DNA of 64,000 nucleotides from Melioribacteraceae bacterium (GTDB lineage Bacteria > Bacteroidota > Ignavibacteria > Ignavibacteriales > Melioribacteraceae): NCBI GenBank assembly GCA_030584085.1, contig CP129490.1, positions 3,009,511 through 3,073,510 on the forward strand. The letters run 5' to 3'. Shown in pieces: positions 2,021 through 19,582 of the stretch. A model generated the notes under the pieces. The model made no database searches, was not told the DNA's origin, and saw only the letters and a list, made by a program, of their open reading frames with translations. Position 1 is the stretch's first letter. The number at the start of each line of letters is the position of its first letter. The translations under genes were made by a program, and so were the position numbers.

Positions 2021-2068
2021 TTTTCTATTCCTCCAGACAATTTTCTTAAGTTAACCATCTAAATAAGA

Positions 2069-4252: not shown

Positions 4253-4278
4253 GTTTTTATCACTTCTTTTTTATCAAA

Positions 4279-7167
4279 TTATAATTGTATAGCGAACCCA
4301 AATGTTATAGTTCTGGGTAGATTTCTGTACTTGATTACATCCGGGAATGGAGCATTGTTTGTTTTTGTTTCCGGATATGTAGCAAACCGCGAATTAATAA
4401 ATTCAACACGATCTTCAGGTGATGCTGATTTTACAGCATCAACATTTGTCCATGTATCATTAAATAAATTTCTTACTTCAATAAAAAGTGCCGGTTTAAT
4501 GAAACCAAAATCGAATTCTTTACGTAATCGGAAATCTGCATTTTTATCAGCGGTTCTTATAAATTGCGTACCAGCTTCCGAAAAGACATGACTTGCAATT
4601 CTGTCATGCGGATAATACACTTGGTAATCCAACGCAATTTGAACGTTTGATAAAATTCCACCTAAAAACGGAAAATCAGAAGGTGTAGCTATTGTAAATC
4701 CAAATTTTAAACGAGCCGGATCGTAGAGAATAAAATCACCGACATCCATTATTCTGCTAACTTGAATATTTGATTCCGGTGGCGCAAGTACATCGGGATC
4801 ACCCGAGCGTCCGGCTATACCTGTACTCCATGAATAGTTAAGATATCCTCCCCACCATCCCGACAAAGGTTTTCGGAGAGATACTTCAATACCTTTTGCA
4901 TCACCATAATTCCCGTTACCGGTTGTGATATACCTCCCGCCAGAGCGTGTAATAACCGTTACTGATCGGATTGTGTTTGTAATGTCTTTATAATAAGCTG
5001 TAATATCTGCTACAATTCCGCCGATGTTATGCTCAATTCCCAATTCATATGCAACAGTCTTTCTTGGTTTAAGATCTCTATTACCAAGATTATAAGGTGC
5101 GGGATATAGTTGATCTGAATTCGCTATGTAAGTATTTAATATACCGCTTACTTGTAAATTTGCTGCATCACCACCAGTTCCTTCACCGTAATTACCAAAA
5201 GCTGCACGTTGGAAAAAGTGTCCGTATGAGAAATGAAGTACAGTGTTTTCAGATATAGGGTGAGAGATCCCTAAACGTGGTGAGAACTGTCCAAAAGTTT
5301 CTGTTTCAATTGTAACCGGGTTTGGATCCCTTCCTTCTTTTGATGCAGCGTAAACATCCAGTGGATCATAAATATCTACAAATTTTCTGTCATTAGGATT
5401 ATAAAAGTCATATCTAAACCCAAGGTTGATGATAAGTCCTTCAAACTCGAGTTTACTTTGGGCATAGAAATTTCCTTCGTACGGATTATAAACTTTTTCT
5501 TCGATTGCATTAAATGCTTTTGCTTCTTGAAAGCGATCAAGTGTATAATAAGTAAAATCCGCACCAGCTTTTAATTGCCAGCTTTTATTTATTTGACTAG
5601 TGTAATCGGTGGAAAATGTCCAGTCAATATTTTTATCTTCTCCGCGATAGTAATAACCTGTTGTATGTAATCCAACTAGATTACTAAATCCACCCGGAAC
5701 AGGATTTCCATTTTCATCATAAGCTCTAAGTCTATCAAACTCAGGAATTCCTTGTTCCCATCCTAGTTCATCACCCGGGAATGTACTTGTACTTCTGTAT
5801 CTGTTTACTCTTGTTAATCTCAATTCATAGAATGTACTAGGACTTAAAACGTGTGTAACTTGAAAAGTTTGTCCATCAATATTGCTTTCAGGATAACCAT
5901 CAAAATCATAGTAAGCGTACTTATTTTCCAAGCCATGTCCGGAAACCCAATCTCCTCTCATATATTCCATTCCGGGATTGGTATTTGACTGACCAAAAAA
6001 TCCAGAAAACATAAATTTAAAATCTTTACTGAATCGATAGGTAAGTTTTGCGGTAGCATCCAACCAAGTACCAAGTTTTCTGTAGCTATTGCCTGTAATT
6101 GGCGGTTGTTGTCTAAACTTTCCTGAAACAAAGAAATAAAAATTATCTAACGGCATCGGTCCACCGATAGAAATTTCTGTCTGATAGCTGCTTCTTTCTG
6201 TATAATCTGTTAATGGTTGATGTGTTGCCATATAGTTCGCAAAAGCTTCTTCCGGTGTCCATTCACTATTAGGATCATTTCCCGGTATTCCTTTGAGATC
6301 AACCCATTGATCAGGGTTATCAATCCACCATTGCAAGTGACGAGCGTGTGTATTTTCCCAATAACGTTCGGTTGAATAATCATAAAAAGCTGTACCCCAA
6401 TGCCTTAAACCTGGAGGAGTCCATCTACCTTCCGCATAAACTTGGACTTTTTCGGTACCGTCTTTAGTAACAATATTAAAAACACCCGAACGAGCTTCAC
6501 CATATTCGGCATTAAATCCACCGGTAATAATTTCAAGTTCTTGGATTGAAGTAAGATTGATATTTGTGTAAGGTTCAAAATCGAGTGGATTGCGTGCACG
6601 AATACCATCAATTAAAAATGCAACTTGATCGAGGCTACCTCTTCTAACCACAAGCTCGCCGGCAGCGTCTTGATCAATACCGGGAAGAGTATTTAAGATT
6701 TGTGATAGTTGTTCAGCCGGTCTAGATGCAATTTCTCTTGCATTAACAAAATGCCTCGTTGATGTTTGATCTTTTTCTACCAAAGGACGATCGGCAATAA
6801 CAACAATATCATCCCCGACTTCAAAGACGGTAGGTTCAAGTTCAAAATCAATAGTAGTTGTGTGATTAATGCTTACTTGGATTCCCTGCATTACAACGGG
6901 CTTATAACCAACCATAGTAGCGCGCAAGTCATAAACACCGGGTGGAACATTTAGAATAAAATATTCACCCTCCATGTCTGTTGCCGAACCAAATTGATGA
7001 TCTACAATTACAACGTTTACACCCGGTAACGGAGTACCCGATTCCGAATCAATAATTTTACCGGAAATTTTTCCAGCAGCAGCATAAACCGGTAAAACAA
7101 AAAGATTGGAGATGGTTAACAGCAGAGTTACCAAAAACATTTTCTTTATAGTATTTTTATTATTCAT
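4279..7167 (-). CDS. TonB-dependent outer-membrane receptor
   Basis: 962 residues. After a signal peptide comes a carboxypeptidase-regulatory-like beta-sandwich (about 33-110, GKIIDSESGTPLPGVNV), then a plug domain (about 130-245, with RPAEQLSQILNTLPGID and GGFNAEYGEARSGV), and a long barrel ending in the aromatic TITFGFAIQL. The architecture is that of SusC-like/CarboxypepD_reg-TonB receptors that import substrates across the outer membrane using TonB energy. The neighbouring ABC importer and GH92 gene suggest an oligosaccharide substrate. No SusD homologue is next to it; a T9SS-type secreted protein and a PorV-like barrel follow instead. The substrate itself cannot be read from sequence. 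Confidence 0.88.
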   Translation of the reverse strand: MNNKNTIKKMFLVTLLLTISNLFVLPVYAAAGKISGKIIDSESGTPLPGVNVVIVDHQFGSATDMEGEYFILNVPPGVYDLRATMVGYKPVVMQGIQVSINHTTTIDFELEPTVFEVGDDIVVIADRPLVEKDQTSTRHFVNAREIASRPAEQLSQILNTLPGIDQDAAGELVVRRGSLDQVAFLIDGIRARNPLDFEPYTNINLTSIQELEIITGGFNAEYGEARSGVFNIVTKDGTEKVQVYAEGRWTPPGLRHWGTAFYDYSTERYWENTHARHLQWWIDNPDQWVDLKGIPGNDPNSEWTPEEAFANYMATHQPLTDYTERSSYQTEISIGGPMPLDNFYFFVSGKFRQQPPITGNSYRKLGTWLDATAKLTYRFSKDFKFMFSGFFGQSNTNPGMEYMRGDWVSGHGLENKYAYYDFDGYPESNIDGQTFQVTHVLSPSTFYELRLTRVNRYRSTSTFPGDELGWEQGIPEFDRLRAYDENGNPVPGGFSNLVGLHTTGYYYRGEDKNIDWTFSTDYTSQINKSWQLKAGADFTYYTLDRFQEAKAFNAIEEKVYNPYEGNFYAQSKLEFEGLIINLGFRYDFYNPNDRKFVDIYDPLDVYAASKEGRDPNPVTIETETFGQFSPRLGISHPISENTVLHFSYGHFFQRAAFGNYGEGTGGDAANLQVSGILNTYIANSDQLYPAPYNLGNRDLKPRKTVAYELGIEHNIGGIVADITAYYKDITNTIRSVTVITRSGGRYITTGNGNYGDAKGIEVSLRKPLSGWWGGYLNYSWSTGIAGRSGDPDVLAPPESNIQVSRIMDVGDFILYDPARLKFGFTIATPSDFPFLGGILSNVQIALDYQVYYPHDRIASHVFSEAGTQFIRTADKNADFRLRKEFDFGFIKPALFIEVRNLFNDTWTNVDAVKSASPEDRVEFINSRFATYPETKTNNAPFPDVIKYRNLPRTITFGFAIQL

Positions 7168-7210
7168 TGCAGCATCCCTAAATAATATTTTGTTTAATAC
7201 AGCATCAAAA

Positions 7211-8164
7211 TCAATCCATTACAACGACAGCTTTAATAAAACCATCAGGTTTATTTTTTGCCGCCATAAATGCATCTTCTATTTCATTCAATTTATATAC
7301 ATGTGTAACTAAAGGTTTCATGTTAATTTTTTTTGTATTTACCATATCCATCCCTCGTCGAGACCCATCAAGTATCGTATCCATATTTCTAAAGTGCCCG
7401 TTTATAATATCCCAAGCCATCCAATTCCAATAACCAAGATCATTTATAATTCTTTTACCGGGATGGTAGCCGAAGATTACAACTTTGCCTTCCATTCTTG
7501 TGATTTGTGGAACCATATCAAGAGTAGCTTGAACACCACCGACTTCAAAGGAAACATCTACACCTTGATCGTTAGTCAATTTTTTTATTTCAGCAGGCAC
7601 ATCTTCCTTCAAAGGATTTAAGACAACATCAGCACCAAGTTCTTTAGCAACTGTCAAAATTTCATCGCGTACATCAATTGCTACTATTTTTGAAACGCCT
7701 TGATGTTTCAATTGTTGTAACAATATTAATCCCATGAATCCAGTTCCAACTAGTGCAACAGTATCGGCAATTTGGATATTAGTTTTGATAAGAGCATTTG
7801 TCGTACAAGAAATTGGTTCAGCCAAAGCTTCTTCAAATGAAACAAAGTCCTCAATAGGAAATACTTGATTTTCTTTTACCGTAACTTCTTCGGCAAATCC
7901 TTTACCGAAAATCCACAAAGCAACTCGGTCACCTTCTTTAAACTTTTTAATTTTTTTACCGACAGATTTTACAATTCCTGCTGCTTCGTGCCCAATAAAT
8001 CTAGGATAATCTAATCCATCAATTTTATGTTCCCATTGATGCAATTCCGAATGGCATACACCGCATGCTTTAATTGAGATGATTAATTCATCGTCTTCAT
8101 ACTTTGGAGATTCAATTTCTTCAATTCGCCAATCGTGTGGTCCGTATAATAAAGCCGCTTTCAT
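7211..8164 (-). CDS. Zinc-type medium-chain alcohol/polyol dehydrogenase
   Basis: 317 residues with the MDR layout: GroES-like N-terminal domain with the zinc cysteine in CGVCHSELHQWEH and the GHEAAG motif, then a Rossmann domain (LVGTGFMGLILLQQL, about 140-165). The segment that usually carries the four structural-zinc cysteines is missing (it reads GDRVALWIFGKGFAEEV), so it belongs to the shorter class lacking the structural zinc. It probably oxidises or reduces a sugar or polyol with NAD(P). The gene lies between the CBM9-like gene and the receptor gene, which supports a catabolic role, but the substrate is unknown. It is separated from its upstream neighbour by a strong hairpin (8198-8222). 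Confidence 0.8.
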   Translation of the reverse strand: MKAALLYGPHDWRIEEIESPKYEDDELIISIKACGVCHSELHQWEHKIDGLDYPRFIGHEAAGIVKSVGKKIKKFKEGDRVALWIFGKGFAEEVTVKENQVFPIEDFVSFEEALAEPISCTTNALIKTNIQIADTVALVGTGFMGLILLQQLKHQGVSKIVAIDVRDEILTVAKELGADVVLNPLKEDVPAEIKKLTNDQGVDVSFEVGGVQATLDMVPQITRMEGKVVIFGYHPGKRIINDLGYWNWMAWDIINGHFRNMDTILDGSRRGMDMVNTKKINMKPLVTHVYKLNEIEDAFMAAKNKPDGFIKAVVVMD

Positions 8165-8197
8165 TTTTAACCTTCATATCAAAATTTTCAAAAACAT

Positions 8198-8222
8198 CGG
8201 CACAGCTTTTTCAGCTGTGCCG
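8198..8222 (-). terminator. Hairpin between CBM9-like gene and dehydrogenase gene
   Basis: A perfect 10-bp stem (CGGCACAGCT with its complement) closes a 5-nt loop. Read on the minus strand it is followed by ATGTTTTTG, a short T run. It sits 15 bp after the stop of the CBM9-like gene and 33 bp before the next start, so it can act as a partial terminator that lowers expression of the downstream receptor genes, or as an mRNA 3' stabiliser. Confidence 0.65.
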
Positions 8223-8236
8223 AATAACAATCATTA

Positions 8237-10186
8237 TTACTTGAGAAGCATCATTTTCTTTGTTTGAACGAGATTATCTGCTCTCAATTCATAGAAATAA
8301 ATACCGCTTGCCAAACTGGAAGCATTCCATTGAACAGTATGCTCGCCCATTTGAACAAATTTGTTATCAACTAAGTTTGCTACCAGCTGACCAAGAATAT
8401 TATATACTCTTAGTGATACTTGTGTAGCTTTAGGAGTTCTAAATTTAATTGTAGTTGATGGGTTAAACGGGTTTGGATAGTTTTGCAATAATTGGAAATC
8501 ATTAACTAATTCTTCGCGTCCACCATCATCACCAACACTTGAAATTGTAGAAACAAAATTCAACATTGCCCAATAATCTGCATTAGCTAAATTTGTAAAT
8601 CCTGGATCACCATTACCTAGAGGATCGCCCCAAGGATCGTTAGGAATATGAGGCTGCCATGTATAATATTGGTATGCATCTTCAAATTCATTGAATGCAG
8701 TTTCTGAACCGTTACTTCCACCAAGATTGAATGCTACTGAGGATTGGCTTGCAACATGGGGATTATAAATTGCCATTTCAACTGTCATTACTCCAGTTGC
8801 AAAATCAAGTGTAACTGCTGATCGACTGTAATCGTTTGCATCAAATACTCTTACAGTATCACCTTCAAATCTTTGATATTGATCCGGGATCCAAGATTCA
8901 TTACCATTGTTAAGAGTAACATCTTCACCAAGAATTAAATAATGATAAGGACCATCGGGAGCAGCGTAAATATTACCGTCATACCATCCCATCATATCAT
9001 TACCAATTCTGCTAGAAAGTGATACAAAAAGTTGATCGCCTTGCCATTGACCAGGGAAGAAGAGTCCGGTTGAATCGTTTACAAACTCGTCAATGTGGAT
9101 ATATGCATAAAGTGTATCCTTTGACCAAAGTAATTTTGCATAGTACTCATCAAACTCTGGTTCAACTAAAGATTCACGATAGTATTTGTTTGCCCAAATA
9201 TTATAACCTGTTCCGGAAATTAAATTAATATGAGCTGCATCACCCCATGCACCTTCATCAGCTACACCATCAATAATAACGGCACCAGAATCTGCCATCG
9301 GCACATCCATTGTTTGACGAATGATATCATCATCACCCGGTTCAAAATATAGAACTGCCCAATAGTCTGCATTTGCAAGGTTAGTAAAACCAGGATCGCC
9401 ATTACCTAGTGGATCGCCCCAAGGATCATTAGGAATATGAGGCTGCCATGTATAATATTGGTATGCATCTTCAAACTCGTCAAATGCAGTTTGTGATCCA
9501 TTACTACCACCTATGTTAAAGCCTATCTTACCTTGAGCATTAACGTTTGGATTATAGATAGCCATTTCCACAGCCCAAATACCTTCTTCTTCATTTATAA
9601 CTACAGCTGATCTGCTGATATCATTTGCATCAAATGATCTAACAGTATCACCTTCAAAACGTTGATATCTATCAGGAATCCATGATTCATTGCCCATGTT
9701 TAGGGTTACATCCTCACCTATAATTAAAAAATGATAAGGTCCATCGGGAGCGGCATAAACATTACCGTCATACCAACCCATCATGTTATCAGCCAACCTA
9801 TTGGATAAAGAAACGAAGAGTTGATCACCTTGCCATTGACCAGGGAAGAAGAGTCCAGTTGAATCATTAACAAATTCATCAATTACAACAAACACATATA
9901 ATGTGTCTTTACTCCATAACATGCGAGCAAAAAGTTGATCGAATTCAGGCTCTGCCAGAGATTCTCTGTAATACTTGTTTGCCCAGATATTGTAACCCGT
10001 ACCAGTCACAAGATCTGCTCTAGCAGCATTTGTCCACTCGGGTTCATCCATAAGACCGTCAATAGTAATTGCCCCGGAATCTGCTTTTGGAACTGTTACC
10101 ATTTCACGTACAATTTCTTGTGCACTTACAGAAATAGTAAGAATCAATAAAAGAAGCCAAACAACATGTAGTTTTAGTTTGACCAT
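8237..10186 (-). CDS. T9SS-sorted protein with two CBM9-like domains
   Basis: 649 residues: signal peptide (1-22), two nearly identical tandem units (about 29-287 and 292-550, period 263 residues) and a type A T9SS sorting domain from LLQNYPNPFNPSTTIKF to the end (KKMMLLK). Each unit starts like a DOMON/CBM9 sugar-binding module (ADSGAITIDGLMDEPEW, SKDTLYVFVVIDEF). It is thus probably exported by T9SS and surface-attached or released, binding a glycan for the nearby GH92 and TonB receptor. No catalytic domain is evident. A strong Shine-Dalgarno (AAGGAGGATG) precedes the ATG at 10186. Binding specificity is unknown. Confidence 0.75.
   Translation of the reverse strand: MVKLKLHVVWLLLLILTISVSAQEIVREMVTVPKADSGAITIDGLMDEPEWTNAARADLVTGTGYNIWANKYYRESLAEPEFDQLFARMLWSKDTLYVFVVIDEFVNDSTGLFFPGQWQGDQLFVSLSNRLADNMMGWYDGNVYAAPDGPYHFLIIGEDVTLNMGNESWIPDRYQRFEGDTVRSFDANDISRSAVVINEEEGIWAVEMAIYNPNVNAQGKIGFNIGGSNGSQTAFDEFEDAYQYYTWQPHIPNDPWGDPLGNGDPGFTNLANADYWAVLYFEPGDDDIIRQTMDVPMADSGAVIIDGVADEGAWGDAAHINLISGTGYNIWANKYYRESLVEPEFDEYYAKLLWSKDTLYAYIHIDEFVNDSTGLFFPGQWQGDQLFVSLSSRIGNDMMGWYDGNIYAAPDGPYHYLILGEDVTLNNGNESWIPDQYQRFEGDTVRVFDANDYSRSAVTLDFATGVMTVEMAIYNPHVASQSSVAFNLGGSNGSETAFNEFEDAYQYYTWQPHIPNDPWGDPLGNGDPGFTNLANADYWAMLNFVSTISSVGDDGGREELVNDFQLLQNYPNPFNPSTTIKFRTPKATQVSLRVYNILGQLVANLVDNKFVQMGEHTVQWNASSLASGIYFYELRADNLVQTKKMMLLK
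8537..9313 (-). repeat. Downstream copy of 789-bp tandem duplication in CBM9-like gene
   Basis: This segment encodes the second CBM9-like unit. The block around 8622 (GGATCGCCCCAAGGATC) recurs at 9411, an offset of 789 bp, and the similarity extends over the whole unit at DNA level, which points to a fairly recent internal duplication. Confidence 0.8.
9326..10102 (-). repeat. Upstream copy of 789-bp tandem duplication in CBM9-like gene
   Basis: This segment encodes the first CBM9-like unit; shared peptide landmarks with the other copy are YNIWANKYYRES and TGLFFPGQWQGDQLFVSLS. Differences are concentrated around the strand following SKDTLY (YVFVVIDEF against YAYIHIDEF). Confidence 0.8.
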
Positions 10187-10220
10187 ATGACATCCTCCTT
10201 TTTGTTAAAGCGATTAATTT

Positions 10221-10240
10221 TGTAGTTTTTTTGAACTACA
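10221..10240 (-). terminator. Short A/T-rich hairpin after FadL-like gene
   Basis: TGTAGTT and AACTACA form a 7-bp stem with a 6-nt loop, just after the stop of the FadL-like gene and before the CBM9-like gene. The stem is weak and the tail (AAAATTAAT) is not a clear T tract, so it may be an intercistronic processing signal and not a true terminator. Confidence 0.35.
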
Positions 10241-10245
10241 GTTTT

Positions 10246-11544
10246 CTAAAACTGATATTTCATATTCATACTTGGTACAAATGCATTTCCGTTATAATTC
10301 CCCGGATAAAAGAAATTCGAATTTTGATCAACCGTTCTTTCAATACCTGCCGCGTATGCAATGGCTAAATCCATGTATAGTTCTTCAAACCAAAAGCCCA
10401 CACCAAATGATAGCCAATGCTGATCGACCGCAGGATATAACATATTATATGTTGCTTCCGAAAAATGTGTTTGACTGTATCTATAACCAAATCTTAGAGT
10501 TACACTGCTGCTTGGGAAATATTCCAACCCAACTCCGAGGTTAAATGAGTTTTCATATTGTAATTGGAATTGCCCTGCTTTGTAACCAGAAATAGAATCA
10601 ACAGAAGAGAATCGATTATTCCATATTTCATTACCGAAGGAATAATTTTGTACAGATTGTGTTCCGCTCCACAAACTATAAAGAGCGTCAACGTTAAGTT
10701 TAAGATTATCACTTAGATTGTATAAAACACCAAGGCCAAACACCCACGGCAGTTCAAAATCAGTTGAAAGTGACGTTTTAGAAACCGTTGAATCTAAATC
10801 TGCCAACATTCTACTTTGTGCATCTCCTTCAAGTGAGGCACTGATTGTACTTTTTACATAAGCTCCTATTCGCAAATCAGTTGTTAAATCTGCTTGAATG
10901 CCGAGTGTGCCGCCAAACGTCCAAGCATCTGCACTATAGTCAACTTGATAACCACCTAAGCCAGCAACTGTTGCTTCCCAGTTCGGATCACCTTGATAAA
11001 AACCGGCTTTGTGTTTAATGTTAAGAATATTTACAGAAGCGCCTACGGAAATATTTCCGAAAGAAACAGCAGCCGATGGATTAATAGATGTAATTGAAAA
11101 ATCATTAAAGTGATCGAATGCTAAGACTGCAGAGTTGGAATCACCTTGGAAGAATTTTGCGAAAGGCCAGTTAACTCTGTATTGAACTGCATTGTTGTAA
11201 TCAACAGCAACCGTTACATCATCTGTTATTTTCCAGAAAGCACCAATGTTAAATCCTATATCATCATCTCTGAACGATCTAAAAAGGGTTTCATTAGTAT
11301 TCACATAATCTTGCTGCCCTAATCTTCCGAAAACAGAAAATTCAATAGCTCTTCCGTTTAATTGTGAAAGTCCTGCGGGATTAGTAGAAAGGCTTGAAAT
11401 TCCATCACTGCCAGCAGCATAAATTCCGTTTAATGACATCGACTTCGAACTAGAAACCGGGAAGAATGACGGAATGCCTGCAGTGATAGTTGTTCCAATT
11501 AGAAAAAGTAGCGTAATAAATATTTTGAATTTCTTAGAATTCAT
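10246..11544 (-). CDS. FadL/OmpP1-type outer-membrane transporter-like protein
   Basis: I place the start at the ATG at 11544 because GGAG lies 6 nt upstream; the frame opens four codons earlier at 11556. The protein has about 432 residues with a signal peptide ending near TTITAG, an N-terminal segment SLNGIYAAGSDGISSLSTNPAGLSQLNG (glycine/asparagine-proline motif typical of the FadL hatch; shown here only as landmarks) and a C-terminus MNMKYQF typical of a barrel. FadL-type barrels admit hydrophobic or small substrates across the outer membrane. Its place between a lipoprotein and a CBM9-like gene suggests a part in uptake of the locus substrate, which is inference. Confidence 0.75.
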   Translation of the reverse strand: MNSKKFKIFITLLFLIGTTITAGIPSFFPVSSSKSMSLNGIYAAGSDGISSLSTNPAGLSQLNGRAIEFSVFGRLGQQDYVNTNETLFRSFRDDDIGFNIGAFWKITDDVTVAVDYNNAVQYRVNWPFAKFFQGDSNSAVLAFDHFNDFSITSINPSAAVSFGNISVGASVNILNIKHKAGFYQGDPNWEATVAGLGGYQVDYSADAWTFGGTLGIQADLTTDLRIGAYVKSTISASLEGDAQSRMLADLDSTVSKTSLSTDFELPWVFGLGVLYNLSDNLKLNVDALYSLWSGTQSVQNYSFGNEIWNNRFSSVDSISGYKAGQFQLQYENSFNLGVGLEYFPSSSVTLRFGYRYSQTHFSEATYNMLYPAVDQHWLSFGVGFWFEELYMDLAIAYAAGIERTVDQNSNFFYPGNYNGNAFVPSMNMKYQF

Positions 11545-11570
11545 AATTAACTCCAAGTTTCGTAAACTTT

Positions 11571-12524
11571 TTATCTTACATTAAATGTTGCGTATGCATA
11601 TCCCTGTTCAAAACGAAGTCTGCCTTCGCCTCCCCAAAGATTATTTGCTATCCATATGTAGTAAGTTTTATTTCTTTCAAGTCCGGTTTGATCAAATGGT
11701 ACAAATGCGAATGTACCAGCAAGAGAATCCCCAACATTTAAAGGAGCTGAGATTACGTTCTCTTTACCATAAACAGTTGAGCCATTATCCAATGATTCGG
11801 AATAAACTTCCCAGACAGTTCCGCCTGGAGAGTATTGATTACCTTCCGCAATACCAATAACTGAAATCAATGAATCAGTAACACCCGATTGTGTTATTGT
11901 CCATTCGATTATTGGTCTGTTACTTCTGGTTTCTTTAACAGAGATTACACCTAATTGACCGAAAGTACTTAATCCTTCTATATTGATAAATACATCGAGT
12001 CGTTGAGCAAAAGAAGTAAAAATTGTTGATGAGATGTAAACTGAATCTTGTCCGGAAATTATTTGTCCTTCTTCAAGACCCGGATCAGCGACAAAAGCTT
12101 TTCCGACTTCCGAAGAGACCTGATCCCACGCATTTTGTTTCATAACAAAGAAATGATAATCTTCATCTTCGTTTAGGCTGTCTAAAACAGTACCACCAAA
12201 TTGAGTGGTTAAATCTTGAGCACCTGATGGAAGTTCACCAAACTTAACCGGAAATTTTAGATTATTTCCTTCGGTGGAGATTAGCCAAACGAGCGAAGTA
12301 TCCAGTGCGGCTTTAGTACCACGGTTAACCCCTAAGATTGAAGCATACCCTCCTACCCAAGTAATTTTTGGATTAAATGATTCAGCTTCAATTACAATGT
12401 TCGACATTGCCGGAGAACCGACATACGGCGCCAATCCGGAATCATCTTCAGAACAAGTAATAAAAGAGATTGAAATAATCACCAAAATAAAAAGTGTTGC
12501 GAATTGTTTAATGAAATTTTTCAT
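11571..12524 (-). CDS. Predicted lipoprotein of unknown function
   Basis: 317 residues with a lipoprotein signal (hydrophobic LFILVIISISF followed by the lipobox ITCS, Cys at residue 24). The rest looks like beta-sandwich modules: EAESFNPKITWVGG and a second half with ISVKETRSNRPIIEWTIT, reminiscent of fibronectin III folds but not assignable by eye. It sits between the GWxTD gene and the FadL-like gene, all in one direction, so it may be a surface-facing sugar-binding or scaffolding lipoprotein of the uptake locus. No catalytic motif is visible. I cannot name a family. Confidence 0.6.
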   Translation of the reverse strand: MKNFIKQFATLFILVIISISFITCSEDDSGLAPYVGSPAMSNIVIEAESFNPKITWVGGYASILGVNRGTKAALDTSLVWLISTEGNNLKFPVKFGELPSGAQDLTTQFGGTVLDSLNEDEDYHFFVMKQNAWDQVSSEVGKAFVADPGLEEGQIISGQDSVYISSTIFTSFAQRLDVFINIEGLSTFGQLGVISVKETRSNRPIIEWTITQSGVTDSLISVIGIAEGNQYSPGGTVWEVYSESLDNGSTVYGKENVISAPLNVGDSLAGTFAFVPFDQTGLERNKTYYIWIANNLWGGEGRLRFEQGYAYATFNVR

Positions 12525-12559
12525 TTCTTACTTCTCGTCTTTTTTGAGAAAGATTGTTA

Positions 12560-13909
12560 TTACATTCTATTTAATTCTTCTTTCCAATAAGGATTATTTA
12601 TTTCGTCTTCCTTAGTTGAATGAAGAAGTGTATACCTGCCATCGCTTCTTAAATCTCCAAAAACATATATATAATTTCTGCGTGCTTGGTATTCCCAAAT
12701 TTCATAAGGTGAAGTTGATTGTTGAGAGGCAAATCTCTGTATGTTATCTGGCATACCATATTTAATTAAGATTTTACCGCGATCAGTTTTCCAACCGTCA
12801 ATTCCGCCCCAACTGAAATTCTTATTAGCATATTGATACCGCTGAACTACTCTATTGAATAATTCATTTTCATCGGTAAAAGGATGTGGGTCGTTTTGAC
12901 GCCAAAATTCTATTAGATATTTAGCTTTTGCGGTCAAATTTAGATTTTCATATGTCTGATAGTTTCTTTCGGTTGAAATCAAACGGATAATCTCACCAAA
13001 CATGTCAGCTTGCTCTCTGGTTAAAAGAGGTTCTTTTTTAAGATAGTCTAATTGAATTACTTCGAACTCTCTGCTTGATTCAGCAACTACAGTCTCATTA
13101 TGGCTAAGCTTTACAACCAGAGTATAAATACCGGACGCAACAACAGAAACGTTTAAACCGTTTGGGACACCGACTGTTACGCCCGATAATTTAATGGTCT
13201 TTCCTTCGAAAGACCTTAGGGAGGTACCGTTTTTTTCAAGAATTTCATATGATATTTGGAATTCTTTTTCTAAATCATCATCTGCACCGTAAATTTCATA
13301 ATAGAAGTAAAGAATAGGATTAAGCAAGCCATATCTTCTTGATGGGTTCGGAATAACGGAAACCGATCCTTTATCAAAAATTCCAGCTCCGTCAGCATCA
13401 GGAATAAATTCCGATGCAAATTCAATTTCACTTATAAATATTTTTCTATCTGAATTAAGTGCGGCACTAAACTCTCTTCTAGCTGTTCCTAGCTTTCCGG
13501 TAATGTTATCTTTAACTTCTAATTCTAAATAATATTTGCCTGCATCCAGATTTCGTGACCATTGATCATGGACAATTGATGTCTCAATTAATTCAGAATC
13601 AAGACCGACATGTACTTCTGTATTCCAGCTTTCTTTATTAATGATTTCTCTTTGTGAATTTTTAATTACAGAACTTATAGTAAGATCAGCGTACATCGAA
13701 TTATTTTTAGGTGCTAATTTGAGTTGATCCGTATAAATCACAAGGTAAAATTCTTGATAAATTTTACCCTGATTAAAAAATGATGCATCATCAACATAAA
13801 ACTGAATATCACCGCCGCTATTTGTAGGTAAATCTTGCTGTGCTGCACAAATTAGCGCAATCGTTTGCGTAATTATTAAAAGTAAACCATATTTAGTGAT
13901 TTTTTTCAC
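12560..13909 (-). CDS. GWxTD domain-containing secreted protein
   Basis: A long open frame begins inside the permease gene, but the sensible start is a GTG at 13909, 2 bp after the permease stop; it gives a signal peptide (KKITKYGLLLIITQTIALICAAQ) and a 449-residue protein. The C-terminal region carries the signature GGIDGWKTDRGKILIKYGMPD (about residues 385-405) that names the GWxTD family, widespread in Bacteroidota-related phyla and of unknown biochemical function. The middle part looks like beta-sandwich. It follows the sugar ABC permeases directly, so it may act in the periplasm on the same substrate. A LacI-operator-like sequence lies inside the signal peptide codons (13855-13870). Confidence 0.75.
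   Translation of the reverse strand: MKKITKYGLLLIITQTIALICAAQQDLPTNSGGDIQFYVDDASFFNQGKIYQEFYLVIYTDQLKLAPKNNSMYADLTISSVIKNSQREIINKESWNTEVHVGLDSELIETSIVHDQWSRNLDAGKYYLELEVKDNITGKLGTARREFSAALNSDRKIFISEIEFASEFIPDADGAGIFDKGSVSVIPNPSRRYGLLNPILYFYYEIYGADDDLEKEFQISYEILEKNGTSLRSFEGKTIKLSGVTVGVPNGLNVSVVASGIYTLVVKLSHNETVVAESSREFEVIQLDYLKKEPLLTREQADMFGEIIRLISTERNYQTYENLNLTAKAKYLIEFWRQNDPHPFTDENELFNRVVQRYQYANKNFSWGGIDGWKTDRGKILIKYGMPDNIQRFASQQSTSPYEIWEYQARRNYIYVFGDLRSDGRYTLLHSTKEDEINNPYWKEELNRM
13855..13870 (-). promoter_or_regulatory. Intragenic LacI-operator-like sequence
   Basis: On the minus strand it reads ACGCAAACGATTGCGC, almost a perfect dyad around a central CG, which is the typical form of LacI/PurR-family operators. 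Twelve bases (AAACGATTGCGC) are identical to the site in front of the binding-protein gene. It lies within the first codons of the GWxTD gene, so it may be a real internal operator or chance codon use. Confidence 0.4.
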
Positions 13910-13911
13910 TT

Positions 13912-14748
13912 TTACTCTTTCAACCCACTTAAAGTGATACCCTGTATAAAGTATTTTTGCGCAAAAAAGAAGACAATTAGTATTGGTAATACTGCAGTTA
14001 CTGAACCAGCCATCAATAAATCCCACTGGGTCAGATACCTGTCACGGAAGATTGCTAATCCGAGTTGTACGGTCTGCATATCTTCGGAATTTAGAACTAT
14101 CAATGCCCATATAAAATCGTTGAAGACACCCATAAAAGTAAAAATTGCAAGTGTAGCGAGTGCAGGTTTTGCTAACGGTACAATAATTTTCCATAACACT
14201 TGTAATTTAGTTGCTCCATCTATAAATGCGGCTTCTTCTAGTTCTTTTGGAATTGTGATAAAAAATTGTCTTAATAAAAATGTACCAAAAGCCGAAGCCA
14301 ATCCGGGAACAATTAATGCGTAATAAGTATCAATCCAACCTAACCAATAGAGCACTAGAAATGATGGAATCATAGTTACGTTGTAAGGAATCATCATTGT
14401 TCCCAAGAATAAATAGAATAAAATATTTCTTCCCGGGAATTGCATTCTTGCAAAAGCAAACGCTGCCATTGAGCAAGTAATTAATTGTCCGAGTGTAACC
14501 GTAAACGCAACAAATAGACTATTAAAATAGTATCTGCCAAAAGGAGCTGCTTCGAATGCTAACTTGTAATTCTCGAATTTAAATTCTGAGGGGAAAAACT
14601 GCGGAGGATACACAAAAATTTCACTCATATCTTTAAGTGAAGTGAGTATCATCCAAATGAATGGCACAAGTGTAACAAAAGCCAATGCATAGATCACTAT
14701 ATGCTTTATAATTGATTTCGATAATTTTAATATCTTCAATTGATTCAT
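13912..14748 (-). CDS. Sugar ABC transporter permease, MalG/CUT1 type
   Basis: I start it at the ATG at 14748, which overlaps the stop of the upstream permease (TGATG); the frame also opens one codon earlier with TTG. The protein has 278 residues and six predicted membrane helices. The cytoplasmic loop that docks on the ATPase is clear: EEAAFIDGATKLQVLWKIIVP, the EAA motif of CUT1 permeases. It pairs with the MalF-like permease and the binding lipoprotein. No ATPase gene is encoded in this locus, so the importer must share one from elsewhere. Confidence 0.9.
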   Translation of the reverse strand: MNQLKILKLSKSIIKHIVIYALAFVTLVPFIWMILTSLKDMSEIFVYPPQFFPSEFKFENYKLAFEAAPFGRYYFNSLFVAFTVTLGQLITCSMAAFAFARMQFPGRNILFYLFLGTMMIPYNVTMIPSFLVLYWLGWIDTYYALIVPGLASAFGTFLLRQFFITIPKELEEAAFIDGATKLQVLWKIIVPLAKPALATLAIFTFMGVFNDFIWALIVLNSEDMQTVQLGLAIFRDRYLTQWDLLMAGSVTAVLPILIVFFFAQKYFIQGITLSGLKE

Positions 14749-15677
14749 CAAAACGCTCCGTGAACACGGTTTTTCATATATCTAACTTGAAGCATTGTTA
14801 ATGCTATTAACACAATAAATAATATATATGCCGCGGCTGATGCGTATCCCATTTCAAAATATTTGAATGCGTATTCGTAGACAAAGAATACAAACACTTT
14901 CGTGCTTCCAAGCGGTCCGCCCGATGTAAGAACATAAACCAAATCAAATACTTGAAATGAGCTGATCATAGACATAATCATAATAAAGAATGTGGTTGGC
15001 GCAAGCATAGGTAAAGTTATTTTCCAAAATTTATCCCACTTACCGGCACCATCTATATCTGCAGCTTCATAATAAGTTTCAGGAATACCCTGTAAACCGG
15101 CAGAAAATAGAACCATGTTTATACCGAAAGTTTTCCAAACTCCCATAATAATTAATGCAAACATTGCGGCAGTTTCATCATTTAACCAATTGATTGAATC
15201 GATACCAAAAAAACTAATTCCATAATTTAACAAGCCATAGTTCGGATCATAAATCCATCGCCAAATAACTGCTGCTGCAACAGGGGAAATAATTACAGGT
15301 GCAAAAAATGCTGTTCGTAAAAATTTCTTTCCCTTTATATGTTTATTTAATGCCATTGCGACCAATAGGGCTACAATCATATTTAAGGGAACGGTTCCAA
15401 ATGTGAAAACAGCGGTGTTTTTAAGCACGCTCCAAAATTCTTGGCTATCGAACATTCTTTTGTAATTCTCTAATCCGACAAATGTCGCTTCATTACTGAA
15501 CATATTCCATTCGTGAAAACTGAGGTAGAATGAAAAGATAACAGGGAATAAAATAAATGTTATAAAAATCACGAGCGTCGGAGATAGAAATAGAATTGCT
15601 CCTAACGTATCATCCTTTCTTTTCCAAGGTAATCTTGATTGCTTTTTTGCTTTAATATCAGTGGAAGAATTTTTCAT
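14748..15677 (-). CDS. Sugar ABC transporter permease, MalF/CUT1 type
   Basis: 309 residues, six predicted helices, starting after a basic cytoplasmic N-terminus (KAKKQSRLPWKRKDD). It has the EAA loop YYEAADIDGAGKWDKFWKITLP typical of MalF/UgpA-like permeases, with LGSTKVFVFFVYEYAF near the end. It lacks the large periplasmic domain of E. coli MalF, so it is the short, UgpA-like form. It forms the heterodimeric channel with the downstream MalG-like protein and is 11 bp from the binding-protein gene upstream. Substrate is unknown; the locus context suggests a mannose-containing or other oligosaccharide. Confidence 0.9.
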   Translation of the reverse strand: MKNSSTDIKAKKQSRLPWKRKDDTLGAILFLSPTLVIFITFILFPVIFSFYLSFHEWNMFSNEATFVGLENYKRMFDSQEFWSVLKNTAVFTFGTVPLNMIVALLVAMALNKHIKGKKFLRTAFFAPVIISPVAAAVIWRWIYDPNYGLLNYGISFFGIDSINWLNDETAAMFALIIMGVWKTFGINMVLFSAGLQGIPETYYEAADIDGAGKWDKFWKITLPMLAPTTFFIMIMSMISSFQVFDLVYVLTSGGPLGSTKVFVFFVYEYAFKYFEMGYASAAAYILFIVLIALTMLQVRYMKNRVHGAF

Positions 15678-15688
15678 TACCCGTCAAA

Positions 15689-17050
15689 TTAGTTTTTATG
15701 TTTTGCGTTAGCTGCATCCAATACTTTATTAGAAAGTTCTGCTCCTTCATTAAGGGCTTTGCGTACATCTTGTTTACCAACAGTTGCTTTCTCAATTGCA
15801 TCAGCCATGTGTCTCATAATTTCCATTCCGCCGTAATCGATAGGTCTTTCGGCCTGACCATATTCCATCTCATCAACAAATACTTTGAAGTTTGGATTTT
15901 CTTCCAAATATTTCTGAAATTCCGGGACTTCCAACACGGCTCTTCTAATTGGAAGATATCCTGAAGTCATTGCCCATTTTGCTTGAACTTCCGGTTCAAT
16001 AATCCATTTAAGAAACGCCCAAGCTTCATCTGGATTTTCACTTTGTTTAAAGATCGCCAGATATTCACCTCCGACTATTGTTGCTCTTTTTTCCGGTCCG
16101 GCAGGAAGAGGAGCAAATCCCCAATCCATATTTTTCAATATTTCATTATAACGAGGTAAATTCCAAGGTCCATCCATCGCCATTGCTAAATTCTTTGAAG
16201 CAAATGCCACATCATAATCAGGTGTAAAAACATCGAGTCTTAACTTCTGGTAAATATCTTTCCATAGTTGGAGAGCTTGGACTCCTGCTTCTTCATGGTA
16301 CATAACATGAGTTTGCTCCAAATCAATTTTATATCCGCCCGCTTGCCATAAGAAAGGATGAAATTGCCAAACCATCCACGAACTTAATGGTCCCGCTGCA
16401 GGGAATACAGGTAAGAATAAACCGACTTGTTCAAATTTTCCGTCGCCATTTTTGTCAAAAGTCAGTTTCTCAGCATACTCTTGCAATTCCTCCCAATTTT
16501 TAGGTGGATGATTTGGATCTAGGCCAGCTGCTCGAAACATATCTTTATTATATAGCAGTGCTAAATTTGTTGCTTCCATTGGTATAGTATAAAGAGTTCC
16601 TCTCCATGAAGCATACTGAAGCAAAGCCGGATAAATATCTTCCAAAGTTCCCTCTTCCAGACCGTTCTCCCCGTCTATGAAATGATCCATTTTATAGATA
16701 GCGTTGGCTTCAACCAAATCTTCAATAAAATGGGCATGAAGCCAAGAAATATCCGGTGCGGTTTTACTTTGAATAGAAGTAATCAGTTTTTGCACCAGTG
16801 CGTCACCCGTTGGGATGTACTGTGCTTTTACTTTGATATTTGGATGAGTTGATTCAAAATCTGCAATGAGTGCATTAAGTGCCGGGACTGTTGATGAAAC
16901 AAAACTATGCCAAAAAACAATTTCTTTAGTTTCTCCATCAGTACCGCTACTGCCTTCACCACAACTTGAGAATAATAAAGACAAACCAATTAGAATTACA
17001 ATAAACTTAACTACATTTTTCAATTTGACTCTCGCTAATTTATTTACCAT
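15689..17050 (-). CDS. Sugar ABC transporter substrate-binding lipoprotein
   Basis: 453 residues with a lipoprotein signal (LSLLFSSC, Cys near residue 30) and a family 1 extracellular solute-binding fold: EIVFWHSF near the start, VKAQYIPTGDALVQKL, KTAPDISWLHA, and the domain-crossing AMAMDGPWNLPRYNEIL. It captures the sugar in the periplasm and hands it to the two permeases. The ATG at 17050 gives a long N-terminal segment; a TTG at 17023 would give a more usual signal peptide. An operator-like sequence lies 7-27 nt upstream of the ATG, so it would overlap the ribosome site unless the later start or a very short leader is used. Confidence 0.9.
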   Translation of the reverse strand: MVNKLARVKLKNVVKFIVILIGLSLLFSSCGEGSSGTDGETKEIVFWHSFVSSTVPALNALIADFESTHPNIKVKAQYIPTGDALVQKLITSIQSKTAPDISWLHAHFIEDLVEANAIYKMDHFIDGENGLEEGTLEDIYPALLQYASWRGTLYTIPMEATNLALLYNKDMFRAAGLDPNHPPKNWEELQEYAEKLTFDKNGDGKFEQVGLFLPVFPAAGPLSSWMVWQFHPFLWQAGGYKIDLEQTHVMYHEEAGVQALQLWKDIYQKLRLDVFTPDYDVAFASKNLAMAMDGPWNLPRYNEILKNMDWGFAPLPAGPEKRATIVGGEYLAIFKQSENPDEAWAFLKWIIEPEVQAKWAMTSGYLPIRRAVLEVPEFQKYLEENPNFKVFVDEMEYGQAERPIDYGGMEIMRHMADAIEKATVGKQDVRKALNEGAELSNKVLDAANAKHKN

Positions 17051-17056
17051 TAAAAT

Positions 17057-17077
17057 TTGTACAAACGATTGCGCAAA
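17057..17077 (-). promoter_or_regulatory. Putative LacI-family operator before the binding-protein gene
   Basis: On the plus strand the core is TTGTACAAACGATTGCGC (17057-17074). It matches the site in the regulator's own leader at 14 of 18 positions and contains overlapping palindromes (TTTGTACAAA, TTGCGCAA). It lies in the 43-bp gap between the regulator stop and the binding-protein start, as expected for repression of the transport operon. Confidence 0.6.
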
Positions 17078-17093
17078 TTTGCATATTTTTTTA

Positions 17094-18149
17094 CTAATAA
17101 CCGCTGTAAACGGCAGAAAACTCGGATTCGTTTGAACGTAAATTGTAAACCGATTTACGCAATATTAATTTGGGATCGAGCACAAGCCGTTCTTTTTTAT
17201 TTGTACCACGTGACTTTATATCGTCAATTAATAATTTTACAGCTACTTGTCCCATTAAGTCTCGGGGCTGCCTAACCGATGTTAATGGCGCAACTAAAAA
17301 TGGTGCATAATCTATTTCATCAAATGCAACCAACGAGACATCTTTAGGAATTGTTTTATTTTCTTCTGATATAGCCTGAAGTGTACCAAGTGTAATAAGA
17401 TCACTTGTCGTAAAAATTGCAGTTGGTGGTTCTTCCAATCTTAATAATAATTTAGTTTCTATATATCCGTTTTCTTTTCTAAAATCATTTCCCACAATAA
17501 GTTTTTCATCTAGTGGAATTTGATGATCTTTGAGTGCATTTATATATCCGGAAACTCTGGCATTATTAGTAGATGTATTTTGCAACCCTTGAATAATAGC
17601 GATACGCGTATGACCGTTATCTATCAAGTGTTTAACGGCTTGGTATGCCCCTTTATAGTTATCAACGACCACTGCATTTGTTTTGATATCATCAAATATT
17701 CTATCAAGCAATACAAAAGGTTTGTTTAATGTTAATAGTTCGTAAATATGATCTTGCTTTGTTCCAACCGGCAAAATTATATAACCATCAACTCCTTTTC
17801 GTCTTAGTAATTCAATTTGTTCAATTTCTAAATCAATATCTTCGTCAGTATTGCAAAGTATTAAACTATAGCCTGCTTCATATGAATGTCTTTGTATAAG
17901 ATGACTAACGTAAGCAAAGAATGGATTTGAGATATCCGGAACCACCAAACCAATAGTGTGTGATCGCTTCAATCTTAATCCACGCGCTAATTCATTTGGT
18001 CGGTAGTTTAGATTGTGGGCTGTTTCAAGAATTAATTTTTCGGTTTCTTCGGCAATGCGGTATTGTTTGCTCTTATTGTTCAATACTCGTGAAACAGTTG
18101 AGACTGAACAATTAGTTTTTTCGGCGATATCTTTAAGTGTAATTGCCAA
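17094..18149 (-). CDS. LacI-family transcriptional regulator
   Basis: I place the start at a TTG at 18149, giving LAITLKDIAEKTNCSVSTVS, the canonical LacI N-terminus (351 residues). A longer frame opens at 18227, but that TTG is part of the -35 box of an excellent promoter, so it cannot be translated. Residues 3-50 form the helix-turn-helix with hinge helix (YRPNELARGLR); residues about 60-330 are the sugar-binding periplasmic-binding-protein-like domain (SHTIGLVVPDISNPFFAYV; PTAIFTTSDLITLGTLQAI). It probably represses the downstream uptake operon and itself until a sugar binds. Operator-like sites lie in its leader and before the binding-protein gene. Confidence 0.88.
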   Translation of the reverse strand: MAITLKDIAEKTNCSVSTVSRVLNNKSKQYRIAEETEKLILETAHNLNYRPNELARGLRLKRSHTIGLVVPDISNPFFAYVSHLIQRHSYEAGYSLILCNTDEDIDLEIEQIELLRRKGVDGYIILPVGTKQDHIYELLTLNKPFVLLDRIFDDIKTNAVVVDNYKGAYQAVKHLIDNGHTRIAIIQGLQNTSTNNARVSGYINALKDHQIPLDEKLIVGNDFRKENGYIETKLLLRLEEPPTAIFTTSDLITLGTLQAISEENKTIPKDVSLVAFDEIDYAPFLVAPLTSVRQPRDLMGQVAVKLLIDDIKSRGTNKKERLVLDPKLILRKSVYNLRSNESEFSAVYSGY

Positions 18150-18172
18150 TTTATTGGGGTTTTTTATATTTT

Positions 18173-18190
18173 TTGCACAAACCTTTGTGC
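18173..18190 (-). promoter_or_regulatory. Putative LacI-family operator in the regulator leader
   Basis: TTGCACAAACCTTTGTGC on the plus strand contains a perfect 7-bp inverted repeat with a 2-bp centre (GCACAAA-CC-TTTGTGC, 18175-18190). It lies just downstream of the expected transcription start of the lacI-type gene, a classical position for autorepression. Confidence 0.65.
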
Positions 18191-18198
18191 TGGATTGC

Positions 18199-18227
18199 AA
18201 TATATTACAATCAGATTTTCTTGTCAA
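18199..18227 (-). promoter_or_regulatory. Sigma70-type promoter of the LacI-family gene
   Basis: Minus strand: -35 TTGACA at 18227-18222, a 17-bp spacer, and -10 TATATT at 18204-18199. Transcription should start near 18192, leaving a leader of about 43 nt before the TTG start at 18149. Confidence 0.7.
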
Positions 18228-18279
18228 GTTAAATCGGCACTTAGAAACACTTTTAAAACTTTTTTAGGAAGGAGATTAA

Positions 18280-19092
18280 ATGAAAATTATATTCACAAAA
18301 TCGAAATGGGAAATGTGGAATGATCCTTTGATTCATTTCATCAATAGAGTTGCTGAGGATAAATTTGATGGTACTGAACTCTATTTTGATTCCGTAAAAG
18401 ATGACCCCAAAGTGATTAAGGATTTACATGAGTCAAACGGATTATTTTTAATTGGACAAATATTAACCGACGGCAAAACAATTTCCGACCATATTGAAAG
18501 CTTTAAACGACAAGCCGAGTTTGCACTAGAAGCCGGTTCGAAGTTGGTTAATGTTCATGCTGGTAGAGATTACTTCTCTTTTGATGAAAATTTACTGCTT
18601 ATTGATAAAATCAATAAATTCAGTAAACAATGCGGAGTTGAATTTTTAATTGAAACACACCGCGCCAGGTTAACATATTCATTAATCGATACAACTAATT
18701 ATCTTGAAGCTTCATCCGGATTAAAACTTACTGCCGACTTTTCACACTGGATGGTTGTTCATGAATCAGACTTGAGTAATCAATCCGAGAATCTACAAAA
18801 GGCAATTGATAGAAGCTTTCACATTCATGCCCGTGTTGGATATGAAGAGGGCCCTCAAGTAACTAATCCTTCCGCCCCGGAATGGAAATCACATTTAGAT
18901 AATCATCTTTCAATTTGGCAAAGGATTATAGATAAAAGAAAGACAGAGGGAAAAGAATTTATTACTATAACTCCCGAATTCGGTCCGCCGAATTATATGC
19001 ACACTCTTCCCTTTTCCAATGAACCTATAAGTGATGCTTGGGAAACAAACATTAAGATGAGAGAGATACTCAATTCAAGGCTTGAGATTTAA
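18280..19092 (+). CDS. TIM-barrel sugar isomerase/epimerase-like protein
   Basis: 270 residues of the xylose-isomerase-like TIM-barrel superfamily (AP endonuclease 2 type). Visible elements include KFDGTELYFD near strand 1-2, VNVHAGRDYF, the metal-ligand region VEFLIETHRARLTYS, LTADFSHWMVV, FHIHARVGYEEG and ITITPEFGPPNYM; Glu, Asp, His and Glu in these strands are the expected metal ligands. The start ATG has a strong GGAAGGAG site. It is transcribed divergently from the LacI-family gene, which suggests it is part of the same regulon and acts on a sugar or sugar acid derived from the imported substrate. The exact reaction cannot be told from sequence. Confidence 0.75.
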   Translation: MKIIFTKSKWEMWNDPLIHFINRVAEDKFDGTELYFDSVKDDPKVIKDLHESNGLFLIGQILTDGKTISDHIESFKRQAEFALEAGSKLVNVHAGRDYFSFDENLLLIDKINKFSKQCGVEFLIETHRARLTYSLIDTTNYLEASSGLKLTADFSHWMVVHESDLSNQSENLQKAIDRSFHIHARVGYEEGPQVTNPSAPEWKSHLDNHLSIWQRIIDKRKTEGKEFITITPEFGPPNYMHTLPFSNEPISDAWETNIKMREILNSRLEI

Positions 19093-19334: not shown

Positions 19335-19342
19335 AACTACTG

Positions 19343-19414
19343 TGAGCGCGGGTGGTCTCGAACCACCGACCCTCTGCTTAAAAGGCAGATGCTCTACCAC
19401 TGAGCTACGCGCCC
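19343..19414 (-). tRNA. tRNA-Lys (anticodon UUU)
   Basis: Minus strand, 72 nt without encoded CCA. The acceptor arm GGGCGCG pairs with CGCGCTC (one G-U), the D arm is GCTCAGTGGTAGAGC, the anticodon stem-loop is TCTGC-CTTTTAA-GCAGA with anticodon TTT, and the T arm is GGTGGTTCGAGACCACC with the conserved TTCGA. It stands alone with its own terminator. The stretch between it and the response-regulator start at 19583 shows nothing else I can name. Confidence 0.97.
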
Positions 19415-19582
19415 AAACCGTCAAAATTTGAGCCTTAAAGATACACTTCTCATTTTATAATTTCAACAATTCTCTATCTTTAATTTTATTTTGTGTTTAT
19501 CTCTTACCGGTAATTTTTACATTTTGTTGGAAATTTGCTTATTATAGATGGATTCACAATTATTTTTTTCCAAAAAGAGCAA

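Follow-up and report, generated by a model that had tools for sequence, protein, structure and literature searches.

The sugar gene cluster and its regulator

The stretch of DNA analysed, here called the window, is 64,000 nucleotides long and comes from a Melioribacteraceae bacterium of the order Ignavibacteriales. It lies at G000:C1:3009511-3073510 of the genome labelled G000; the other G and L labels used below denote the genomes of relatives and fetched loci. The left part of the window is occupied by a run of genes on the minus strand, headed by a LacI-family regulator and the components of a sugar ABC transporter. The features discussed are given in window coordinates unless marked otherwise.

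18227-18199, minus strand: predicted sigma-70 promoter of the regulator gene, TTGACA (18227-18222), 17-nucleotide spacer, TATATT (18204-18199)
18173-18192: candidate operator O1, CAGCACAAAGGTTTGTGCAA on the regulator strand, at about +1 to +20 of the predicted regulator transcript
17094-18149, minus strand: LacI-family regulator, 351 amino acids (Pfam LacI PF00356, 2.3e-13; Peripla_BP_1 PF00532, 1.2e-36; both above cut-off)
17057-17076: candidate operator O2, TTGTACAAACGATTGCGCAA, between the regulator stop and the binding-protein start
15689-17050, minus strand: extracellular solute-binding protein of the sugar ABC transporter; judging from relatives, the true start may be a TTG at about 17023
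14748-15677, minus strand: ABC transporter permease 1
13912-14751, minus strand: ABC transporter permease 2
13853-13872: candidate operator O3, TAGCGCAATCGTTTGCGTAA, inside the signal-peptide codons of the GWxTD gene
12560-13909, minus strand: GWxTD-domain protein with signal peptide, the gene that carries O3
1037-12524, minus strand: further co-directional cluster genes, conserved
G000:C1:3000284-3000300, about 9.2 kb to the left of the window: candidate operator O4, about 83 nucleotides into a DUF6259 gene

The regulator has an N-terminal LacI helix-turn-helix and a C-terminal domain resembling periplasmic binding proteins. Its TTG start was set by alignment with relatives, and the open frame extends to 18227. 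An identical protein is found in the record of Ignavibacteriales bacterium isolate SURF_28 (L039), while matches among plasmid sequences were all below 60% identity. Beyond the GWxTD gene, the run encodes a conserved 317-residue protein (11571-12524, minus strand) that matched nothing in Pfam or NCBIfam at the limits applied, a FadL-like channel, a T9SS-tailed protein, a zinc alcohol dehydrogenase-like protein, a TonB receptor, a 727-residue protein and a PorV/PorQ-like protein. It continues to the left of the window with GH92, GH106, ribokinase, D-ribose pyranase, an aldo-keto reductase, a 485-residue protein, a ureidoglycolate-lyase-like protein, DUF6259, a GFO/IDH/MocA oxidoreductase, a sugar-isomerase-like protein, GH42 and an MFS protein. 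Regulator and MFS gene included, the cluster measures about 35 kb and holds about 23 genes (L097, G000:C1:2993000-3010600, together with window positions 1037-18149).

The order of these genes is nearly kept in three families of the order, with the exception of GH92, and the first part is also present in a KSB1 record. G040 is without several of the left-hand genes at their place. The GH92 alpha-mannosidase-like gene (window 1-1013, L097:15335-17524; TIGR01180 above cut-off) stands between the PorV/PorQ-like and GH106 genes. On the other side of the regulator is a divergent xylose-isomerase-like TIM-barrel gene (18280-19092, plus strand), whose start comes 98 bp after the centre of O1; in the stretches that were fetched, it adjoins the regulator only in the window's genus. 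Further on, at about 19340-19420, there is a minus-strand sequence that by eye resembles a tRNA gene.

The operator motif and its conservation

A sequence-only reading of this DNA proposed a matched pair of LacI-type operators, one in the leader of the regulator gene and the other before the binding-protein gene. Both 18-mers are present, at 18173-18190 and 17057-17074, and they agree at 14 of 18 positions, as had been said; the perfect 7-bp inverted repeat ascribed to the first is likewise there, GCACAAA-CC-TTTGTGC. The full motif is a palindrome of 20 rather than 18 bp, with the consensus TTGCACAAACGTTTGTGCAA. For these predicted sites, an even palindrome of 20 bp fits the LacI-family expectation of 16-22 bp, usually with a central CG. 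Most sites do have CG at the centre; in the window's genome O1 and O4 have GG/CC instead, as does O1 in several relatives.

A pattern covering O1 and O2 has two matches in the 3,742,376-base genome and none for the reversed control. With up to three mismatches the window holds eight matches against 0.87 expected, a number reached in none of 100 shuffles. For a symmetric 20-position matrix, the best upstream site was taken from each of 11 loci in relatives, excluding the window. The three highest scores it gives in the window are at 18173 (28.0), 17057 (23.8) and 13853 (22.4), after which the fourth drops to 9.4. None of 40 simulated 64-kb sequences exceeded a score of 19.8. The earlier reading had also pointed to a weaker dyad, GTAAACCGATTTAC, near the end of the regulator gene. 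It is present at 17145-17158 but is not a copy of the motif: it scores -15.1 with the matrix and is lost in G001 and G002, two congeneric genomes. A second dyad, GATTGTAATATATTGCAATC, symmetric at 9 of 10 positions and lying over the -10 region, is lost in the same two genomes and was taken as chance.

Among 164 genomes of the order, 27 have a match to the regulator at E 1e-85 or better. Twelve of these, previously unused and none of the window's species, served as a new test set. O1 (score at least 12) precedes the regulator gene in 10 of the 12, the weakest scoring 13.2, and is absent at that score in G132 and G093. Where the next gene encodes the binding protein, O2 is present in three of five new loci (G103, G087, G090) and missing in two (G110, G115); none of the seven new loci without a binding-protein gene has it. 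In the first set, O2 occurs in 9 of 12 loci, window included, with scores of 15.1-23.8, each unreached in 500 shuffles; it is missing in G036, G038 and G040. Because the matrix was trained on upstream sites only, these hits between the regulator and binding-protein genes are independent of it. The upstream sites of the first-set relatives had themselves trained the matrix; their scores are therefore circular and were not counted. The conspecific G151, which repeats the window's two sites, was also left out of the counts.

O1 scores below 13 in the KSB1 locus L044 and in G052, G021 and G027. At L044 the best score in the roughly 190 bases before the regulator gene is 12.4, which was counted as a miss. 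Five more distant loci of the earlier set, which lack the binding-protein gene, have no site of at least 13 behind the regulator; two of them (G053, G035) have such a site before it. The comparative evidence thus backs the proposal that the sites serve the adjoining LacI-type regulator, and argues that the O1/O2 pair is real and functional. The two mirrored sequences are very probably docking sites of a sugar-sensing repressor, O1 being almost certainly, and O2 with high likelihood, an operator. The word pair needs amending, however: both members stand as candidate operators, but in their own genome they belong to a set of four.

The remaining two sites are within coding sequence. O3 sits about 47 nucleotides into the GWxTD reading frame. 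The same gene has the site at its start in G001, G002 and G005 as well, so that 4 of 12 loci including the window have it, and it was not found in the other eight examined. Of 60,000 synonymous encodings, as many as 19 match its score in the window, 66 in G005 and 1536 in G002. O3 is therefore not accounted for by the encoded peptide, and lies strongly above synonymous expectation in two of the three genomes tested. It is probably an operator.

O4 was found by a sequence model, R1, from whose training rows it was absent. As O1, O2 and O3 of the window were in those rows, O4 is the only new site from the own-genome search. It has the same 16-bp core as O1, GCACAAAGGTTTGTGC. Six of 10 genomes carry the site at +80 to +83 of the gene (G000, G005, G025, G002, G033 and, weakly at 13.7, G039), and it is missing in G022, G036, G038 and G040. 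It overlies a TKVC-like peptide common to its carriers, and the peptide is different where the site is missing, which leaves room for a coding coincidence. Synonymous encodings matching its score number 37 to 986 of 40,000, with 657 in the window's genome. O4, too, is more likely than not an operator.

It may be, then, that O3 and O4 are accidents of coding and that O1 and O2 are the only operators. The peptide under O4 and the synonymous counts just given speak for this. Signal peptides of this lineage can also mimic the motif: in G023 (L137:831-850) the signal-peptide codons for SQTFAQ resemble an operator, a possible source of false hits that calls for caution over O3. Against it, the two sites lie in this very cluster, and among the candidates scored no place elsewhere in the genome is below E 3. 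In two of three genomes, moreover, synonymous encodings seldom reach the score of O3, and O4 keeps its place at +80 to +83 in six. Coincidence at both sites is considered unlikely, if still worth bearing in mind.

Promoters and the proposed mode of repression

The predicted promoter of the regulator gene matches the sigma-70 consensus at 11 of 12 positions, and none of 300 local shuffles was as good. It is the best promoter in 16900-18330, a region whose six promoter-like places are not above the number in shuffles (7.2). Transcription generally starts about 7 nucleotides after the -10 box; O1 would thus span about +1 to +20. An exact TTGACA accompanies 14 of 16 O1-type sites, with one such upstream site in each of 14 genomes tested, and 7 of 10 promoter-side sites in the new genome set. 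The O1 promoter rows leave out, by choice, G021, G027 and L044 as well as the second upstream site in each of G039 and G053. The mean promoter scores (of 12) and those of local dinucleotide shuffles are as follows.

O1: 9.94 against 7.91 (16 sites)
O2: 8.11 against 7.85 (9 sites)
O3: 7.33 against 7.64 (3 sites)
O4: 7.33 against 7.53 (6 sites)

These scores come from a scan for the sigma-70-type consensus, which Bacteroidota-type promoters may escape. A strong promoter of that type precedes O1 only; none is recognisable before O2, O3 or O4. Taken singly, the O1 promoters of G040, G033, G038 and G052 are not distinct from their own shuffles (34-76 of 300 as good). Against a first background of 2100 random places, mostly coding, with a mean of 7.5, O2 had seemed slightly elevated at 8.1, all nine sites scoring 8 or 9; the local-shuffle control removes this excess. 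The earlier statement that both sites are placed for repression accordingly holds for O1, but O2 has upstream promoter scores equal to those of shuffled sequence. In G036 and G038, which lack O2, there are two perfect palindromes before the regulator, 239 and 229 bp apart. The distal one bears the promoter and the second has no TTGACA, so that the second candidate operator of this group is in the leader before the regulator gene instead.

The centre of O2 is 16 bp before the annotated binding-protein start and about 43 bp before the TTG aligned with relatives. For a site behind the regulator stop codon and with no recognisable promoter, the simplest role would be to halt polymerase arriving from the regulator gene. 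The position of most sites away from visible promoters suggests, more generally, that elongation is halted rather than initiation blocked. The reading favoured here, with reasonable though incomplete confidence, is that an autoregulated LacI-type repressor runs the cluster of about 35 kb by an initiation block at O1 and elongation blocks at O2-O4; we infer that the one regulator would bind all four. In the absence of inducing sugar, O1 would be occupied by a repressor dimer that covers the transcription start of the regulator promoter and blocks initiation. Repressor on O2 would halt polymerase that had escaped from O1 or started elsewhere; bound near the beginnings of two downstream genes, at O3 and O4, it would probably act in the same way. 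This would allow some low-level transcription of the regulator gene with the structural genes kept off. The chance that O2-O4 act as such roadblocks is put at about even. That they form a conserved, promoterless and partly intragenic series at the regulator/transporter, transporter/outer-membrane and enzyme-module borders, added to an initiation operator, is a more tentative proposal. If it is true, the clearance of repressor by inducer would set expression stepwise along the cluster.

The main rival to roadblocks is DNA looping or cooperative binding, by which O2-O4 would raise the occupancy of O1, much as lacO2 and lacO3 raise that of lacO1 through looping. It has in its favour the presence of several sites in one locus and the spacing between O1 and O2, which is 1116 bp in the window and ranges over 1074-1155 bp in seven relatives. 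In G039 and G053, moreover, a second site lies upstream of the promoter, giving pairs around it 115 and 128 bp apart that fit looping better than a roadblock. E. coli LacI has a C-terminal leucine-heptad tetramerisation helix, but by eye none is obvious in the C-terminus of this regulator or in those of its orthologues, whose tails are short and variable, and O3 and O4 are separated by about 23 kb. Looping is on balance rather unlikely. So, too, is the suggestion that O2-O4 are ordinary operators of internal promoters, perhaps of Bacteroidota type, missed by the consensus scan. All three sites are near the 5' ends of genes and the scan was limited to the sigma-70 type, yet the same scan detects the O1 promoter in most relatives and gives O2-O4 scores like those of shuffled sequence, which makes this an improbable account. 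That the sites belong to one of the two further LacI-family matches in the genome, or are chance palindromes, is very improbable, given that site and regulator gene travel together across relatives and that shuffles exclude a chance pair.

Roadblocks of this sort would not be without parallel. In E. coli, bound lac O3 truncates the lacI transcript, and lacZYA has a promoter of its own. Here, by contrast, O2 comes after the regulator stop codon and a second promoter is not recognisable. What the two have in common is an operator placed where the repressor gene ends, so that polymerase transcribing that gene meets it; Lac repressor on O3 is described as a roadblock that stops polymerase (PMC3711431). 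A roadblock site for PurR inside E. coli purB is mentioned in the LacI survey, and appears as a cited title in PMC4132739 (PMC4052901; PMC4132739). That system also joins a LacI-family protein to an intragenic site and a roadblock, the last only proposed for the present cluster; it has one site in one gene, whereas O3 and O4 are in two genes of one cluster.

Related systems, possible inducer and extent of the regulon

In a large survey of the LacI family, the regulons are described as local ones for sugars, 72% of the regulators as autoregulated, and the sites as even palindromes, mostly with a central CG, of which fewer than 1% are in coding regions (Ravcheev et al. 2014, PMC4052901). By that description, the present system shares the even palindrome, autoregulation and a local regulon for one pathway; it differs in that two of its four sites are intragenic and that O1 and O4 have GG/CC at the centre (PMC4052901). 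The MalR operators of Streptococcus pneumoniae, CGCAAACGTTTGCG, have the inner CAAACG/CGTTTG core in common with this motif; the outer half-site, GCACAAAC here, is different, as are the phylum and the locus (PMC4451989).

The regulon is new, of a known kind, and its layout of sites is uncommon. A literature search found nothing joining Melioribacter with LacI. Papers on Ignavibacteria and ribokinase dealt, to go by the openings of their abstracts, with other lineages only, and among papers containing any of five palindrome strings none has the 16-letter core of O1 or that of the consensus. The analysis yields an operator motif and a regulon, both open to test, for a regulator whose lineage is not among the phyla named in the survey consulted (PMC4052901). 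It also places a transporter, outer-membrane proteins and glycosidases of unassigned substrate under one proposed control circuit. If the promoterless sites are roadblocks, they would be a natural, conserved case in which low self-expression of a repressor is separated from that of the genes behind it.

The sequence-only reading had suggested mannose oligomers as relieving sugars. This finds no support in the relatives: GH92 has no match in any of the eight stretches that cover its place (the stretch of G002 does not cover it), whereas genes for ribokinase and D-ribose pyranase are both present in all 10 genomes whose stretch was fetched. In the cluster these two enzymes pass their cut-offs (TIGR02152, 366.6 against 299.65; NF008761, 151 against 93), so that ribose, or a saccharide containing it, is a better guess for the inducer than mannose. 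The best PDB match of the regulator is 9ny7, a ribose operon repressor, at 183.2 bits, with CcpA at 180.8 and PurR at 178.9, and its best NCBIfam model is lactose_RbsR at 258.8, with the PurR model at 246.8. Membership of RbsR is not claimed, because CcpA and PurR are almost equal and the scores are below the RbsR equivalog cut-offs (258.8 against 382 for NF047341; 235 against 531 for NF007743). The system resembles that of RbsR in these best matches and in the RbsK and RbsD genes of the cluster; its transporter, consisting of a solute-binding protein and two permeases, is different.

The motif had also been offered as a means of finding the rest of the regulon. It is usable for this, but in its own genome the scan adds sites in the same cluster and none clearly elsewhere. 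The model search gave four sites at E 0.11 or less, all in the cluster, with the next at 3.8 (150 of 2457 first-look candidates scored). Over the whole genome, matches with up to three mismatches number 10 against nine for the reversed control, showing no enrichment outside the cluster, and the three places outside it all carry three mismatches. A regulon extending beyond the cluster was rejected on these counts and on the E value of the fifth-best place. With no further match below E 3 among the candidates scored, this looks like a local, autoregulated LacI-type regulon: a candidate operator stands before the regulator gene itself, and the few targets belong to one pathway.

In relatives with a close orthologue of the regulator, model matches at E below 0.1 occur in 11 of 11 genomes and mostly inside the cluster, a result that is partly circular because those genomes supplied most of the training rows. 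Operator-like matches with no adjoining cluster gene to explain them were seen at G039:C71:15910-15926 and G053:C179:51994-52012. Of 22 relatives without a close orthologue, nine have a match at E of 1 or less and two at E below 0.1: the strongest match of G023 is in signal-peptide codons, and that of G056 is near the end of an NtrC-like gene.
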